Part shown: in pieces, positions 53,180-60,531 of the stretch
Position numbering within the stretch: position 1 is the first letter of the stretch
Layout of the letters: each line of letters starts with the position of its first letter
Source: Obelidium mucronatum
Lineage: Eukaryota > Chytridiomycota > Chytridiomycetes > Chytridiales > Chytriomycetaceae
Length of the DNA: 64,000 nt
Direction of reading: 5' to 3'
NCBI GenBank assembly: GCA_025765595.1
Contig: JAIVFH010000020.1
Span: 186,001 to 250,000, forward strand
The notes under the pieces: model-generated
Databases searched by the model: none
The model's input: the letters and a program-made list of their open reading frames with translations, nothing else
Told to the model about the DNA's origin: nothing
Made by a program: the position numbers and the translations under genes

Positions 53180-54041
53180 GGAAAAACTGCTTGTTGTTTG
53201 CCCTGAGTTCTGGTTTGTTGGGGAAAAAAAAAAATGTCATAAATCTCATTGTTCCGATTGAACTATTGTAAGGAATAAGACAATGGCGAGAATATTATTT
53301 GATGTAGTCTGGATGATTCTCAATTAATAGGGAATACGCCACTCTCCTTCACCAAACAGCACTGGCTGAGTCCTTTGCCTTCACTCGGGATCTTCTTATC
53401 TCAGTTGCATTGAATGTGTCCAGTTCTTTCTTGTGTGATGGCCGCGTTCGGCGGTAGTGTAGGGTGAGAGTTGAAACCGAATTTGGCGTTGACCACCATC
53501 AGGAGATTGGGGAAATAGAGAAATTTGGATTTGTTTTGAATTAAATGCAATAAAAGGTTTCATATTTTCCAAATGTGGCCATGAGTGACCCCCCCCCTTT
53601 TGGCAGGGAATTGAAATGTTGAAAATCCAAAAATTTGAATTGTATACGCGTTTCAAATGTGATATTTGCAGCTGATATTCGGTGATTGTAGTCCGAACAC
53701 ACCTGAAATGACAGAAATCCTCTTTGCCATTTGATATGCATCTTGAACATTTGAAACACAAATTAATTGTAAGCCCATTACATAATCAACATTTGCCAGG
53801 CATTCAGTAAGCGATTGTAGTACAAACAGTTTCCATTCCGGCTGGATTCATGGTGGGAACAGTTTTTGTTTCATTTCCTTCTGAATCCAACAGAAACCCA
53901 AAGGAATTACCAAAATATTCCTGACAAAAGCTATTTGTTTAAATAAATTTGTGTTGTGATGGCATGCTGTTCCAATTTCTCTCTGGTTTCAACTGCTTTA
54001 TTACAAAAAAACATACTACACAGATTCTCAGATACGCGTAT
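53180..54041. other. intergenic, possible left flank of the transposon
   Basis: About 860 bp without a convincing gene. Two related short motifs, gtgattgtagtccgaac near 53682 and gcgattgtagtacaaac near 53811, lie 130 bp apart in the same orientation and might be subterminal transposase sites. I searched by eye for an inverted match to the 60093-60531 flank and found none longer than about 11 bases, so the element's left end is not located. Confidence 0.4.
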
Positions 54042-55354
54042 TCAGCCCCGAATTTCCCCGTCATCACTGTCCTCGCCACTGTAGTCATTCAGCAGAATAT
54101 CCATTCTGGCATAGAAGCGCGAGCACCCAGTTCGAAGGAAGCCTCTTTGGCGCAAAGAGGACTCGTCATCGCCAACGTAGTTGTAGATATTCATGAATCG
54201 GTAGTATTTTTTAGCAGATTGACAGACACTGGATAAGTCGCTCTTATTAACAATGACAAGTTCAAGCTGGTGTCGGACCTGTGGAAGCCAATTTAATAAA
54301 TCATCAAACGAGGCCAAAAGATATCGAAACATACAAAGCACATGATGCAAGCCAATACATGAAATGACTTCAACTCAAGAAACTTGGAGACAGTGAGCGA
54401 GCGAGTTACTGATGGCATTTTCGCAAAAGCGGCGGCAACTGCTAGAAAATTTGCATTCATGAAGATCTGCTCAGATTGATTTGCTTCAGGATCCGCCGGA
54501 ACTTGAAGATAGAGGAACCTGAATCCAAGTCACTAGGAGCAGATTGGACACAAAAGAATAAGAGCTGGAACTTACTGGTCTTTCTTGAGAAGATCTCTTG
54601 CTTTCTCTTTGTCCCCGTCCAATTTGTACGGATCGTGTTTGAAGACAGCTTTGAATTCGTTAAGAACAGCGCTTCGGTACTGCTGCACCATCTCCTTGTA
54701 CTTTATTACATTAGAGTTTAATTTTAAGAAAACAAACATGACTAACAGTGTGATGCATACGTAGACTTGATACAACCGTCTTGATTTCCACAGGTTCCAA
54801 AACACCAAGAATTTCCTTCAGCGCCAGCCATAAATCATTGATTGTCTTTGGATCGTCAATACGAAAGTCGGGTACAAACAGCTTTAATTGGAGAGTGTGC
54901 CGCTGGCTTATGACTCGTAGTTTTGTCCATTCCCTGTACAATCGAAGAGGTGAGAAGATATAACACAACTGAAACATTCAAAAGAGGTGAGAAGATATAA
55001 CAAAACTGAAAGAACTATGTACCCGCTCCCCCACTTGTTCCAAAGCTGATCACCAGTAGGAACTGCAGATTGTCCTTGCGATCGATTTTGAGAATTGTCC
55101 TCGCTTAAAGGAACAGCTTCGACGCTATCTTCTGTAGTGTCCGCATTCTCATCATTATCATCAGAGTCTGATTCCCTTGGTGGAACAGGGGGGAGACTAT
55201 TGCTTCAAGCCGTTATTAAGACACTACTCCAAACAAGGGATGCTAACCTCTTCCGGACCTTCTTTTTGAGTGTAGTACCAGTTGTATCAGCTCTTTTTTT
55301 GCCTGATCGTTTCCTTTGATGGATTTGTTTGATGCGTAAAATCCGGGGATCCAT
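54042..55354 (-). CDS. DUF6532-like protein, probable transposon-associated gene (one frame break)
   Basis: Six exons: 55248-55354, 55023-55196, 54747-54933, 54576-54700, 54359-54517 and 54042-54278. The N-terminus is basic (RIKQIHQRKRSGKKRADTTG), then acidic (ESDSDDNDENADTTEDSVEA). The helical core includes EWTKLRVISQRHTLQLKLFV, IKTVVSSLRMHHTYKEMVQQ and YRSAVLNEFKAVFKHDPYKL. Then come IFMNANFLAVAAAFAKMPSV and FHVRHQLELVIVNK. This resembles the DUF6532 proteins common in fungi, of unknown role. Exon 5 needs one extra base near 54480 to stay open, so this copy may be inactive or mis-assembled. A 37-bp tandem repeat lies in the intron 54934-55022. Its start codon is 95 bp from that of the transposase, in divergent orientation. 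Confidence 0.5.
54947..55012. repeat. 37-bp tandem repeat inside an intron
   Basis: The unit gaggtgagaagatataacac... begins at 54947 and again at 54984, with one internal change (cacaa/caaaa). It duplicates an acceptor-like ttcag site on the minus strand, so the gene may choose between three acceptors; only the one at 54934 keeps the frame. Confidence 0.75.
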
Positions 55355-55449
55355 CTTCGTTTTGGCAAAGTTTCTAACAATTTGAAATGTGTAAAAAACG
55401 TGTTGAAAGCGTCTTTATATATATAAATTTATTCATTTGAAATTCGAAA
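55355..55449. promoter_or_regulatory. 95-bp divergent promoter, DUF6532-like gene and transposase
   Basis: Shared spacer between two start codons on opposite strands. It contains tatatatataaatttatt about 30 bp before the transposase ATG, a good TATA-type element, and caatttgaaatgtg on the other side. Confidence 0.5.
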
Positions 55450-58414
55450 ATGCGTTGTAATGTGCCTGGCTGCCGTCGCACATTCAAAAGAGCTTCAGAT
55501 CTTACAAGGCATATGAACGCAAAACACTTGCCTGCTGTACAGAATGCACTTGCGGCAGCCACAGGATTTGTTCCAAGTCCACCTGTCGAAAGCAGCAGTC
55601 AGGAATCACTTGAAACCTTCCCGGAAGATAATGGAGACAGTGGCCCAGTTCTTGAACCAAATGAAGATCCCAACCCAGAAGAAAACGTTGAGAACGTTCC
55701 GGATGTCCACGCCCGCTATGGTTGGTGTTTCCATCGTGAACCATATTGACAAGTAAAAGTGACTTATCAGGTTTTCAGGTGTACCTATCAATGATAATGG
55801 CTCCTTGCTACGAAAAAAAGAGCAGCGCATTGCGTCTGATTTGCGTCGGCAGTTTTCGAAGGCTGACATTGATTTCATACAACATGTTATTCTTGAAAAT
55901 CCAATGGGGCAATCTGCAATTACAAGGTGAATTACTGAATATGCATTCCTAGTTTCTTTTATCAGCTATTGTTTTACTCATTTCATTGGCAGGAGGCTTG
56001 TATTCGATAAACCGCGACTTCTTGCTGAACATGTCCCGTCGTTCGAATCGGGCAAACAAGTTCATCAAGCCATTGATGGTATAACATATCTAGGAGTGGT
56101 ATGCAGTATTCAATCTGAAAATGCGATCTAATTTTAAATTAGGACTACAAGCGAATCAAAATTCCACTTACAAAAATCCTTCGTAGTATTCCGCCGCAGT
56201 TTCTCCCAAATGCCCGCGCATATTATCGAGTACGCCCAGCAATCATGTTTGCGCGACCCATCAGCAAGATTATCCGTTCGCAGCTAGAAGACAGCTCTCT
56301 TGATGGCCACTTCGCGTACTGCTTCACGAAACAGTTCAACGCCAATGGAGACCGTCTTTTCGATGAAGCATATTCAGGTGATTATTGCGAAACTCTGCAA
56401 AACAAACTTCCAAATGGCTCCACTCCCCTCCTTCTTTCGTTTTCGTCCGATCAAGCGCAAGCTTCAAAAATTGGTAAAGAGTCGTTTTGGCCAAAAATCC
56501 TGACACTTGGTAGTTGAGAATTTCTTCCCTCTAAAGTATCATTCACATCAATCTTATTCTAGCAAACATAGCCAAGGGGATTCGGAAGAAACTGAATACA
56601 CGAGCCAGCAAATTAGTCACCTTCCTTCCAAACATCAAACCACTCAAGAAAAGCCATTCCAACACTCCGTTCCTCACTGCCTACAAACGGGCTGTAATTC
56701 ACGCCAGTTTGTCTGAGTTGTTTAGTGACATCCTGCCATGGATCAAGAATGGTGTTGACTTAGTTAGCCCCGACGGAAAAGTACGGAAGTACTTCCCATG
56801 TTTGTTCAACTTCAATGGAGACTATCCGGAGCAAACTTTGTACGCAACCGTGAGCCCTCTCTGCAACAGCTCACCAATGCCATGCTGCAATGTGCCCACA
56901 AATTCCCTGAGCCATTGTGGGTTGACCTGTGATGATTACACTCCTCGAACCAATGATAATATGCTTCAAAATTACCGGGCTGCAATGGCTAAACCTACTA
57001 CTGCTCAGAAACTCGAAACTTTTGCCCAAATTGGTCAAGTTCCATTTGTTCAAAACGCGTTTTATGAATTGGGTCCCACATTCTGCATCCACTCAGCCAT
57101 CACTGCAGACCCTTTGCATGTTATTTACATAGGAATATTTGGTTACCATCTGTGGGGAGCTACAAAAAAGCTTATTGAAGATAATCACGGCTCTACTGGT
57201 CTTGACCTTGTGGATTCTCGAATCTGTCGCATCCCAACTTCTCCTGGCTTCAGCCATTTCCCCCATGGAGTCACAACCTTGAGCCGTCTTACCAAGAAAG
57301 ATTATCAAAGTATAATGATTCAACTTTTACCATGCATCATGGACCTTGTTAGTAGCGATGTTGTTACATGTCTTCGGACCCTATTTGATATTGCAATGAT
57401 GATTTCAAACACATCCCACACGGAAGCATCATTGAATACATTGGAACAATATCTCATTCAATTTGATGGCCAACTTGATGTGTTTCGAATGGAAAAAGAC
57501 ATGGATTTTCCAAAGATGCATGCACTGAGTTTACACTTACGGGGAATACGTTGGCATGGAGCAGCAGATTCTTTTGGGACAGAGCATATGGAAGCCATGC
57601 AGCAGTATAACGTTGTCAAGGCTTACGCTGCATCAAATCGGAAGAATGCAGAGGAGCAAATGATACGTCACGTCACTCGTATGGACAAAGTTCACACCAT
57701 TCGTCGACTTCTGAGCAACAATTCTGGTTTCTATTCTGAAGAGACTCAACAACTCAAATCCACCAAACTGATTTCTCGTTATCGCCGGCTTTGCAGTCTC
57801 AACATGTTTTCCCTCCACCCAGACTTTGTTGGATTGGAGATCAAGCTCCAGGAATACTTGACTCGATTGGACACAGATCTTGGAAATATGGTACTGTCAT
57901 CACTACCTTCAATTCTCCTGAATTTAATCAACTTTTTCAATAGCTGACTTTGTATAAGACCATCAGAGTAACTGATTATGATGAGGATAACAACGTGAAC
58001 GTAGATTTCATTCGCGTAAAGACCTCTGAACCCCTCGAAGGATTCTGTCTTTACAGCTCAATGCTTTTGAAGCCATCGCCTATTGAAGTGGGCATTTCGG
58101 CCAGATTGTGGTTAATTGGCAAGGCACTTATGTTTTTTTCTGTTTTTGACGGAACTGCTGAGAGGTCGTTTGCGATATTGCGTCGTTATTCCGCTTTACC
58201 CAGTAATCAGCAAAACGCAACAGGATGCTACATTTTTAATCCAGTACCAGGAACGAGTGAAGGGGTTATTGTTGTGCCAGCCGAAGCAATTGACGCTAGA
58301 GCACATGCTATTCCATATTTTCAAGATGGACAGGAAGGTGGATTAGGAGGAATTTACTTGAATGCTTATGCTCAGAAATATATTTGGGCAACTGTGGGTT
58401 GTAGTCAAGGATGA
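55450..58414 (+). CDS. Plavaka-type (CACTA-related) transposase
   Basis: Six exons (55450-55720, 55779-55926, 55993-56098, 56143-56509, 56563-57890, 57944-58414) join in phase to 896 aa with no stop. A C2H2 zinc finger opens the protein: MRCNVPGCRRTFKRASDLTR then HMNAKH (C-x4-C-x12-H-x4-H). The Plavaka signature region follows: AYYRVRPAIMFARPISKIIR, SFWPKILTLANIAKGIRKKL, SELFSDILPWIKNGVDLVSP, DGKVRKYFPCLFNFNGDYPE and QTLYATVSPLCNSSPMPCCN. Further on are DPLHVIYIGIFGYHLWGATK and LRGIRWHGAADSFGTEHMEA with VKAYAASNRKN. This family uses a DDE-type RNase H fold to cut and paste DNA. I did not pin each catalytic acid; DGKVRK, the D of ADPLHV and the E of FGTEHME are candidates. All splice sites are good, so the gene looks functional. 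Confidence 0.85.
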
Positions 58415-58500
58415 ATTGCTGGGTCCATTTTGATTTTCAATAAACTTGTCAGTGACGTGATTTTCATTGACAATCATATAAACAGACTGTATGATTTCCA

Positions 58501-58677
58501 TAAATAACGCGACCGTGCTAAACGCACTTGCCGCTGCTGATAAATAACGCGACCGTGCTGAACGCACTTGCCGCTGCCAACTCCCATAAATAACGCGACC
58601 GTGCTAAACGCACTTGCCGCTGCCGACTCCCATAAAAACGCGACCGTACTAAACGCACTTGCCGCTGCTGAATCCCA
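58501..58677. repeat. four-copy tandem repeat of about 46 bp
   Basis: Units at 58501-58540, 58541-58586, 58587-58632 and 58633-58677 share taaataacgcgaccgtgct, then aaacgcacttgccgctgc. Differences are small: a shorter first unit, taaaaacg and gtact in the fourth. The array sits between the 3' ends of two convergent genes (transposase and zinc protein), where it could serve as a transposase- or chromatin-protein-binding block or in 3'-end formation. Frames running through it on the min us strand repeat the word ASAFSTV and are not real genes. Confidence 0.9.
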
Positions 58678-58723
58678 TACTACCTGCATTGATTGGAGCT
58701 CATAAACTTGAATAAAAGTGTGT

Positions 58724-59455
58724 TTATTTACCAAGTGTACTCAAAAAAAAAAGGTTGCATGTTGTACACTCATCATCATTGCAGTTCCGATGTTTGCATG
58801 TGAGCGTGCCGTGAGAATTTGTACAGTGAGAACATTGGCGCTCCTCCAGTTTATCCTGATTCCCCTCCAAGCACTGGGGTCGTTGGCATCCCTTGAATTT
58901 GCATTGATTTTGGCAGCGATTCCTTGTGTGAGACAGGCCCTTGTTGACTTTCTTGTTGCAATGTGAACACTTTAAAGACTTTTGAGACTGAGCGCCAAAT
59001 TTTCGACGAGCCAAATACAGATTCCACTGATTGTGCTGTGGGACAGGGCCTTCAAATTGGACAGCAGGTACTATTGAAATACCGAAAAAAAACGATATTA
59101 AATGATATGCATAATGGCAGCTGCGTACTTACAGATATTGAAAGGTTCCTGCCAAAATGAGCGGGCTTGATAGTCCTTGGTATCTTCAAGCTCCTCCAAT
59201 TCCAACTCCCCTTCTTCTCCCATTAAATCCTCTTCATCTCTGCTGCTCTCACTGCAATGATTGCTTGATTCGTCACTGGTACTTTCGAGAAGGACATTTT
59301 CATCTGTGTCTGACTGGCAACTCAAGTAAGATTAACACTGATTTCAGCAATCGACATCCACTTACAAAGATATATGCTTCATTTGAGTCTGGTGTGCATT
59401 CCCAGCGCTCGATTGATTGCGCCCAGCGAATGCGCAGTCGGTCCGTTTGTGGCAT
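58724..59455 (-). CDS. acidic protein with a Cys/His-rich zinc-binding C-terminus (transposon cargo)
   Basis: Exons 59366-59455, 59133-59313 and 58724-59070 join cleanly to 205 aa. It begins MPQTDRLRIRWAQSIERWEC. The middle is very acidic (SSRDEEDLMGEEGELELEEL). The region WNLYLARRKFGAQSQ leads to a dense zinc-ligand cluster: CSHCNKKVNKGLSHTRNRC, CKFKGCQRPQC, RQCSHCTNSHGTLTCKH and CNDDECTTC. At least four Cys/His quartets could be formed. C-terminal zinc ribbons of this sort are common in transposase-related proteins, but I do not recognise this one. An acidic tract plus zinc fingers beside a histone gene suggests a histone- or chromatin-binding role; this is inference. Its start is 61 bp from the H3-like gene. 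Confidence 0.7.
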
Positions 59456-59516
59456 TTTAAGCAAATAAATATTTATTATCAAGATTGATAAATATTGATT
59501 ACATTCAAGACTGCGA
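59456..59516. promoter_or_regulatory. 61-bp divergent promoter, zinc protein and H3-like gene
   Basis: The whole spacer between the two start codons is AT-rich and holds a perfect 14-bp palindrome aataaatatttatt (59464-59477), followed by tcaagattgataaatattg. Paired expression of the two genes is likely, as for host histone gene pairs. Confidence 0.5.
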
Positions 59517-60092
59517 ATGCCCACCAAAAAGCCACGAAAACAAGTGCAACCTCGTAAACGCCGTCACGTCGAAGATAGCGAGGAAGAAACGGAGCGCGAA
59601 GAGAAAGCAATGAAAACGGGCAAGCCGGAGCAACAAGGCAACAAAGCCCGAAAGACCCGAGACAACTTCGCTTGGCACAAGCAGATAATTAAGCTGCAGA
59701 AAGAAACAACTCTGGTGATACCACGAACGCGATTCGCTGCACTGGTATGTCGACTTTGACTGCTGCTTGTCCGCTGCTAATCTTCAACTTAGGTTCGGGA
59801 AGTTCTTTTACATACAACCTATGGCAAATCGTTGGCAGCCACGGGAAATCCCCCCATTCGTGTTACTATATCGGCTATGCAGGCTCTGCATGAATTTTCC
59901 GAATCATACATGGTTACATTCTTTGAAGACGCGGTTCTTTGTTGTGTCCATGCAAAACGGCAAACATTGATGTTGCCGGACATGCGGTTGGTGGGAAAAA
60001 TGCGGCAGTATTTTCTGCCTTCACATTATGTACAAGGCAATGAGTCCGAGAACAAGAGGAGTGAGGCCGTGAAAAATAAAATGAAAGTTTGA
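59517..60092 (+). CDS. highly divergent histone H3 variant (CENP-A-like features)
   Basis: Exons 59517-59744 and 59793-60092 (intron 48 nt with ctaat and ttag) join to 175 aa. The histone fold aligns with H3: helix N to 1 WHKQIIKLQKETTLVIPRTR then FAALVREVLL; helix 2 SAMQALHEFSESYMVTFFED; then VLCCVHAKRQTLMLPDMRLV and GKMRQYFL (H3 has [39 protein letters not shown]). Loop 1 is about nine residues longer (HTTYGKSLAATGNPPIRVT). The tail lacks the ARTK and ARKS sites and instead holds basic blocks around an acidic patch (VEDSEEETEREEK). There is a 29-residue C-terminal extension. A changed tail and long loop 1 are CENP-A hallmarks, but helix 3 is more divergent than usual for host CENP-A. It would form nucleosomes with H4 if the fold holds. 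Confidence 0.8.
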
Positions 60093-60531
60093 ATGATTTG
60101 CAAACGAAAATGGCAATTATATTGCACACGTGTATTTTGGCGATGGTATTGTAAACGATTTCCTATAGAATGCGATTCAATTTTTGTGACAGGCAAGTAA
60201 CTGCGTTATTTTGCATTTCCAGGATGCAAAATGCAATTGGCCCCATTTGAGACGCAATCAGAGAATATCAAATGAAGGAATTGCGATTGCACTTTATTTT
60301 GTATTAATTGAGCGCAGTTCAAACTGAAGGAATACACCCAACTGGATGCATTCCTCGCGGCCAGTTTCCTGATGACGCTATATCGCTCTCTCAATACTTT
60401 GCGTCTGCACAACGCCGACAAGCATCAACGCCAAAACCTCTGCTGCGCATTTCAAAGATGATCTTTATTCATTATTGGTGACACTGGTCATGAACAAACT
60501 CCATTTTATTTTCCAATTCCAAAGCTGGAAG
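60093..60531. other. intergenic, possible right flank of the transposon, with an inverted repeat
   Basis: About 440 bp without a gene. A 9-bp inverted repeat, attttgcat/atgcaaaat (60208-60216 and 60224-60232), flanks a 7-base loop. Near 60190 the text ggcaagtaactgcgttattt partly echoes the reverse complement of the 46-bp tandem repeat (ggcaagtgcg...gcgttattta). No terminal inverted repeat matching the left flank was found by eye. Confidence 0.4.

Follow-up and report, generated by a model that had tools for sequence, protein, structure and literature searches.

Transposon silencing operates largely through marks on histone H3. In the chytrid Obelidium mucronatum (Chytridiomycota, Chytridiales), the gene of a very divergent histone H3 lies close to that of a Plavaka transposase, which raises the question of whether both belong to one DNA transposon and, if so, whether the histone works for the element or is merely carried along. 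The locus was analysed in a window of 64,000 nucleotides, the whole stretch C20:186001-250000, to which all positions given without a contig name refer; the fungal genome search covered the window's own genome only (48.3 Mb, 694 contigs).

Ends, Target Site and Copies of the Element

It had been proposed in an earlier note on this DNA that the genes between 54042 and 60092 make up one compact element rather than a set of scattered host genes. This proposal holds, and the genes do lie inside, but the span was too short, as the element occupies 53497-60374 (6,878 bp, no strand assigned). The alignment of copies, by which the note had advised that terminal inverted repeats (TIRs) and target-site duplications (TSDs) be sought, revealed both. 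The left TIR, CATCAGGAGATTGG (53497-53510, plus strand), is identical at 12 of 14 positions to the right one, read at the junction and given here as its reverse complement CATCAGGAAACTGG (60361-60374, minus strand), and this pair was the best match in a control scan for inverted ends. Junction reading places one copy of the TSD, AC, at 53495-53496 and the other at 60375-60376 (no strand assigned to either); in the empty allele the left copy reads AT, a difference of one SNP.

In the accessible text of PMC12730594, PlavakaB elements are characterized by the termini 5'-CATCA..TGATG-3' and by TSDs of 2-3 bp. The outermost letters of the window element, CATCAGGA..TCCTGATG, fit these termini, and those of a second element on C2 (CATCG..CGATG) are one letter off. 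The duplications AC (window), TT (C62), TT (C36), TA (C2) and AT (C10:143022-147586) likewise agree with the 2 or 3 bp described. There is hardly room for doubt that a TIR-bounded DNA transposon of the PlavakaB type, with 2-bp TSDs, includes the H3 gene as well as a gene for a zinc-cluster protein.

A genome search with a 7-kb query recovered a copy on C62 with identical first and last bases, together with two abutting matches on C170, the left flank followed by the right flank. C170 is thus the allelic empty site, and it aligns contiguously across the junction over 3,113 bp (96.1%). The C62 copy (96376-103336, 6,961 bp) has flanks unlike those of the window and shows no mismatch to the window copy, from which it differs by two indels: an 8-bp gap in exon 5 of the transposase gene, breaking the frame in C62, and a tandem repeat that is 91 bp longer. 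No empty allele of the C62 insertion site was found in the genome search. Both ends are also present in a third copy, on C36, from which most of the transposase gene is missing and which is split by ~7.4 kb of other sequence. Elsewhere in the genome, the repeat in which it sits continues across the point of insertion seven times, over all 400 bp queried in six cases (C131, C173, C40, C11, C459 and C1) and over 342 bp at C180. The ends of the window element are common to the C62 and C36 copies, and both of these reach the right terminus beyond the H3 gene; neither ends before 58.7 kb, the outcome that the note had named as damaging. Nor is the histone gene single-copy, another point that it had marked for checking, for H3 is absent from the allelic C170 and present in the element copies and in the second element. 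Given the mismatch-free second copy and the heterozygous insertion, the element has been mobile recently. Gene spacing alone would not exclude that unrelated host genes stand here side by side, with no single element around them, but the empty allele on C170 rules out such a neighbourhood, and the mismatch-free copy elsewhere, amid other flanks, tells against it as well; its probability is practically nil.

The flanks on C20 and C170 show an allelic difference of ~4%, which suggests that the genome is very heterozygous and that both of its haplotypes are present in the assembly. The window copy is neighboured on one side by an ORF without Pfam match and on the other by a cation-efflux transporter gene. 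The most frequent 6-mer in the non-coding ends of the element, CAAATG (seven occurrences), was considered as a subterminal binding motif and rejected, the best 6-mer of 200 shuffles also having a median of 7.

Genes Inside the Element

Four genes, modelled by eye from splice signals, sit inside the element and form two divergent pairs that converge on a 46-bp tandem repeat of ~4 units (58498-58679, no strand assigned), found between the convergent gene ends by a repeat scan; gene models and scan agree with the arrangement given in the note. The first pair consists of a DUF6532-like gene on the minus strand (54042-55354; 337 aa, six exons) and the Plavaka transposase gene on the plus strand (55450-58414). 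The transposase has the 896 aa and six exons previously reported and matches PF18759 with E 2.4e-43 (149 bits, cut-off 26.3). As for the labels DUF6532-like and C2H2 finger, similarity was seen in both cases, but it stays below the Pfam cut-offs (PF20149, E 0.011, 16.1 of 24 bits; finger of the transposase, E 1.8e-4, 22.2 of 25.2 bits). Elsewhere in the genome, DNA at C31:229165-230692 is a ~78% relative of these two genes, and the genome searches made returned no H3 or zinc match there.

The second pair, with 61 bp between its start codons, comprises a gene on the minus strand for an acidic protein with a C-terminal Cys/His cluster (58724-59455; three exons that encode 205 aa, without match to any Pfam family), hereafter the zinc protein, and the H3 gene on the plus strand (59517-60092; 175 aa, exons 59517-59744 and 59793-60092). 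The product of the latter, which has a C-terminal extension, matches PF00125 with E 1.2e-18 and is 33% identical to the canonical H3 of the host, in line with its earlier description as very divergent. Both proteins have annotated counterparts, which are gene predictions: a 147-residue 'histone-fold-containing protein, partial [Obelidium mucronatum]' is identical to the window H3, and another protein of this species matches the zinc protein.

The Cys/His cluster of the zinc protein is conserved in an alignment of three groups, and in each of its five annotated relatives there is a stretch of 40 residues of which 14-18 are acidic and 1-5 basic. A protein search with the zinc alignment gave five matches, all of them from O. 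mucronatum; these protein searches depend on shared 5-residue words and may overlook distant relatives. Judged by its acidity and linkage, the zinc protein would most likely be a dedicated chaperone or a DNA-targeting loader of the element H3.

Core, Tail and Loop 1 of the Element H3

In the alignment, identity to the window H3 amounts to 90% for the H3 of the C36 copy, 31% for that of C45, 29% for that of C2 and 28% for the likely host CenH3. The canonical H3 of the host was read at eight loci, seven of which hold one identical uninterrupted frame, the eighth (C465) being without the canonical start. The likely host CenH3 (C209, C55) owes its designation to a longer loop 1 and a resemblance to cnp1; in the PDB, H3 chains match it best, by ~3 bits. 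An AlphaFold model of the window H3, of moderate confidence (pLDDT 72.9, pTM 0.45), has the expected helices and, in loop 1, an additional short one (85-93), and a fold search with this model places nucleosomal H3 chains on top, if weakly (E 2.7e-4 at best; in the first 16 rows, TM by query ~0.4 and rmsd 6.5-11). Residues Q55, F67, R72, E97, E105, D106, H113, A114, R116, T118, D123 and L126 are kept in 8/8 alignment rows, and Q68 is replaced in all five element H3s (window, C36, C2, C45 and C15). In the tail, where the alignment is loose, the positions of K4, K14, K27, K36 and K79 are replaced in 5/5 element rows, and K stands at the K9 position in three of them. We take the kept and replaced positions to be contact and mark sites. 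By its predicted fold and its H3-specific core residues (R72, H113, R116, T118, D123, L126), the window protein qualifies as a core histone H3, and since the core and the H3-H3' contact residues are kept, it could enter nucleosomes together with host H4.

The motif ARKS occurs in none of the five element H3s. The window H3 contains ARKT at residues 44-47, where C36 has AQKT; ARKT is absent from C36, C2, C45 and C15. This stretch is similar to the ARKS surroundings of K9 and K27 in the host histone, so the window H3 might still be marked, and it speaks against that protein being fully mark-proof. A core with its contacts kept and a changed tail would also suit a histone that acts as a dominant negative and weakens heterochromatin throughout the host genome instead of on the element, and we know of no means by which an H3 alone stays on its own gene. 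However, the conserved, dedicated partner gene suggests targeting, and global damage would presumably be costly to an inherited element, so that interference of this kind appears very improbable.

Several characters recall the centromeric histone CenH3/CENP-A, represented by Cse4, cnp1 and the likely host gene. The element H3 shares with these a longer loop 1, a divergent tail and the replacement of Q68. Loop 1 exceeds that of host H3 by 10 residues in the window and C36 and by three in C2, C45 and C15, the likely host CenH3 having an excess of seven. An intron lies at one and the same codon position in the window, C2, C45 and C35 H3s and in the likely CenH3 gene, whereas the canonical H3 genes read have none. 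Moreover, among PDB sequence matches, Cse4 and H3/CENP-A chimera chains come first for the C2 H3, by less than 1 bit over H3; the best match of the window H3 is an H3. Unlike CenH3, the element H3 is much more divergent, mobile, multicopy and paired with a zinc gene, and it carries a C-terminal extension with an LPS(N/H) motif that is common to window, C36, C2, C45 and C15 (M replaces L in C2) and absent from host H3 and the likely host CenH3. For the element H3, descent from a CenH3-type ancestor is favoured by the position of the intron and by loop 1, but not by percent identity.

The loop, the shared intron, the replacement of Q68 and the matches of the C2 protein would agree with a role in which a CenH3-like H3 and the zinc protein steer the transposition complex to particular chromatin, e.g., centromeres, or shape the element ends during transposition. 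Against such a targeting or transposition factor, the window H3 is slightly nearer to host H3 than to the likely CenH3 and has an H3 as its best PDB match. In a tree built from 25 H3 rows, most of the branching order lacks resolution, the bootstrap did not settle, and the window branch is very long (4.4 changes per column); neither a clade of the five element H3s (p-AU 0.273) nor one that unites them with the likely host CenH3 (p-AU 0.113) is rejected. In addition, the window copy adjoins a transporter gene, the C36 copy lies in a dispersed repeat, and other Plavaka loci are without the pair. Taken together, a role in targeting seems unlikely.

The window H3 alone retrieved a single protein match, from O. 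mucronatum. With the H3 alignment 123 matches were obtained, the top three from O. mucronatum (227, 218 and 118 bits); below these, among the matches listed (120 of 123), H3-like proteins of many organisms follow from 113 bits down. The same search returned P0078, an unnamed protein of 386 aa (source lgn) with a histone domain and PF02902, the Ulp1 peptidase, which is frequent in CACTA and Mutator elements; the protein is possibly a further transposon-linked H3.

Linkage of the Zinc and H3 Genes across the Genome

Relatives were sought genome-wide with the window H3, the C2 H3 and the window zinc protein as queries. The zinc search yielded 12 loci (C20, C62, C36, C10:197k, C221, C45, C2, C202, C35, C15, C10:146k and C118). 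An H3 match lies no more than 1.3 kb from the zinc gene at 11 of them, divergently transcribed in every case, and at the twelfth, C118, the contig edge falls where H3 would be. The 11 linked loci are not independent events and form about four groups: C20, C62 and C36 with C10:197k/C221; C2, C202 and C10:146k; C45 and C15; and C35. On C53, a stretch that matches the zinc part of C35 at 91% is without detected H3, and the H3 relatives on C6, C85, C112, C73 and C678 lack a zinc match. Broken or incomplete element H3s were met at C10:197k, C6, C85 and C112. By an eye count from 42 rows, the genome has 31 distinct Plavaka loci; H3 was found within 10 kb at three (C20, C62 and C2:757k), and none was found within this distance at the other 28, from which it follows that transposition as such does not require the pair. 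These absences are soft, as the genome searches score only the best candidates.

The histone and the zinc gene do travel with a transposase, as the note had asked: the pair is present in the C62 copy and in the element on C2. The latter (C2:755484-764107, 8,624 bp, of which ~200 bp inside resemble a nested insertion) is bounded by a 21-bp TIR, CATCGCAGAAATCTACCCAGC, and a TA duplication, and its empty allele, C465:21-420, aligns contiguously at 99%. It contains a transposase (PF18759, E 6.4e-21) paired with a second gene, in reversed order with respect to the window, followed by a repeat, the zinc gene (minus strand) and the H3 gene (plus strand); no homology of the second gene to the DUF6532-like protein was found. 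The two transposases are ~26% identical over 177 aligned residues, and eight others compared, from loci without detected H3, are 44-66% identical to that of the window over the aligned parts; a tree test did not reject the two H3-bearing transposases as sisters (p 0.347). Distantly related as they are, both Plavaka elements contain the divergently transcribed zinc/H3 pair. A deletion derivative, C10:143022-147586, has lost the transposase and kept zinc and H3 sequence, the latter with stops.

C45 and C15 represent a third group with the pair; neither transposase nor element ends were seen in the stretches read around them, so that the group is at most a candidate Plavaka. Downstream of the C45 H3 lies a 465-aa ORF without Pfam family (C45:214918-216313), into which the DNA match to C15 extends. 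At C35:34540-37882, the space of 3.4 kb contains a near-canonical H3 whose frame is broken upstream of the histone fold, together with a gene for a zinc protein and an ORF with a SET domain (PF00856, E 4.8e-9). Element ends were not seen here, and the zinc and the SET part are each repeated at other places; for these reasons C35 is not counted as a further element with H3 and zinc protein. Further H3-like stretches were noted at C28:156954-157258, C528:5385-5687, C100:30845-31243, C143:11012-11338, C5:404948-405295 and C5:564326-564667.

Selection on the Pair and Its Origin

Values of dN/dS were obtained by our own Nei-Gojobori count. Between the C2 and C45 H3s, dN/dS is 0.23 (dS 1.66, dN 0.38, 211 codons), and between C2 and C15 it is 0.27; the window H3 gives 0.50 against C2, 0.41 against C45 and 0.43 against C15, near saturation. 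For the zinc domain of C2 versus C45, pN is 0.16 and pS 0.80 (95 codons). As judged from these codon comparisons, H3 and zinc domain alike show purifying selection between C2 and C45. The young H3 pairs, both at dS ~0.03, have ratios of 1.29 (window/C36) and 0.65 (C45/C15), so young copies drift. The pattern as a whole would fit constraint along active lineages combined with drift in single copies.

These data bear on the possibility that the histone is a passenger, that is, a host H3 gene that came to lie between the ends fortuitously (transduplication) and is merely carried, as argued for hAT elements of Dothideomycetes. Such a view has precedents (PMC3538342; PMC6710886, as far as their accessible texts go), and both the drift of young copies and the broken or partial state of several element H3s agree with it. 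It is opposed by the purifying selection between C2 and C45, by the occurrence of an identical type of pair in elements whose transposases are only ~26% identical, and by H3 frames that are uninterrupted in three groups (175, 224 and 244 aa). In addition, the H3 intron is kept, and the gene is thus not a fresh retrocopy. We consider a mere passenger improbable. The best explanation, to which we give an even chance, is that this H3 was retained for a benefit that it brings to the element.

With regard to its origin, identities of 26% for the transposase and 29% for the H3 indicate roughly equal divergence, which makes joint descent of the module, with loss elsewhere, plausible; alternatively, the zinc/H3 module may have passed between Plavaka lineages.

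Relation to Known Elements

The earlier note had pointed to KDZ-type transposons with chromatin-related genes (TET/JBP) and knew of no DNA transposon with a histone H3 gene. Plavaka now stands with EnSpm-type elements and not with KDZ (PMC12730594, accessible text), and H3 has been reported in hAT elements of Pyrenophora tritici-repentis (PMC3538342) and Pseudocercospora fijiensis (PMC6710886).

The first of these, described by Manning et al. 2013 (PMC3538342), carries H3L and has 26 copies and ESTs. According to the accessible text, it resembles the present element as a fungal DNA transposon that is bounded by TIRs and contains a divergent gene of H3-like type, along with a central ORF. Its H3L copies are mostly full-length, and since the 26 copies are very similar, no long-term selection is seen. 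It belongs to the hAT superfamily; the function of its central ORF is given as unknown, and a zinc-cluster partner is not mentioned in that text. Dhillon et al. 2019 (PMC6710886) described a hAT element with a RIP-mutated H3 in P. fijiensis and relatives. There, too, H3 lies inside a DNA transposon and was amplified along with it, but the accessible description is of an intronless capture of host H3, an 8-bp TSD and copies destroyed by RIP, whereas the H3 of the window element bears an intron, is highly divergent and shows a sign of past selection. The window element has a Plavaka transposase and a 2-bp TSD instead of the hAT transposase and 8-bp TSD, and its H3, with one intron and 33% identity to host H3, departs from the intronless, near-canonical gene of the P. 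fijiensis case.

Another kind of chromatin-related cargo is known from PlavakaB and other fungal DNA transposons, in which TET/JBP genes have been proposed to help escape silencing (PMC12730594, in its accessible part). TET/JBP-carrying PlavakaB elements resemble the window element in termini, TSD and Plavaka transposase; they differ in having dioxygenase cargo and Agaricomycotina hosts, as opposed to H3 and a zinc protein in a chytrid. In the open-access literature searched, including the accessible text of PMC12730594, no H3-carrying Plavaka element was found in print. H3 as transposon cargo is thus known; new are its presence in the Plavaka superfamily, the conserved zinc partner, selection across distant groups and the CenH3-like longer loop 1.

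A Possible Function in Element Chromatin

If the element H3 is retained because it works for the element, the following course may be envisaged. The acidic Cys/His partner would deposit the element H3 on element DNA; the resulting nucleosomes, having lost the canonical tail, would resist silencing marks; and these element-coded nucleosomes would keep the DNA transcribed or accessible to the transposase. Such a system would be a chromatin-level counterpart of the TET/JBP genes on other fungal DNA transposons. This anti-silencing mechanism with an own loader is a tentative proposal, clearly short of an even chance, and its weight is lowered by the ARKT stretch of the window H3. Broader still, and rather unlikely in its full form, is the idea of a class of DNA transposons that build their own chromatin, with a CenH3-descended H3 lacking the canonical tail for silencing marks, delivered by an element-coded acidic zinc-cluster loader, the two genes forming a module older than the split of two Plavaka lineages or passed between them.

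The purifying selection between distant groups, unlike the hAT cases as described in the accessible parts of their reports, makes the pair a candidate working part rather than a stowaway. If this is true, an element equipped with an H3 of its own, in which the tail is rebuilt, and with a co-inherited partner would mount a direct attack on silencing by H3 marks, and how a histone stays restricted to the DNA that encodes it would become testable. The occurrence of an H3 and partner pair in two distantly related jumping genes suggests that such elements may package or shield their own DNA.
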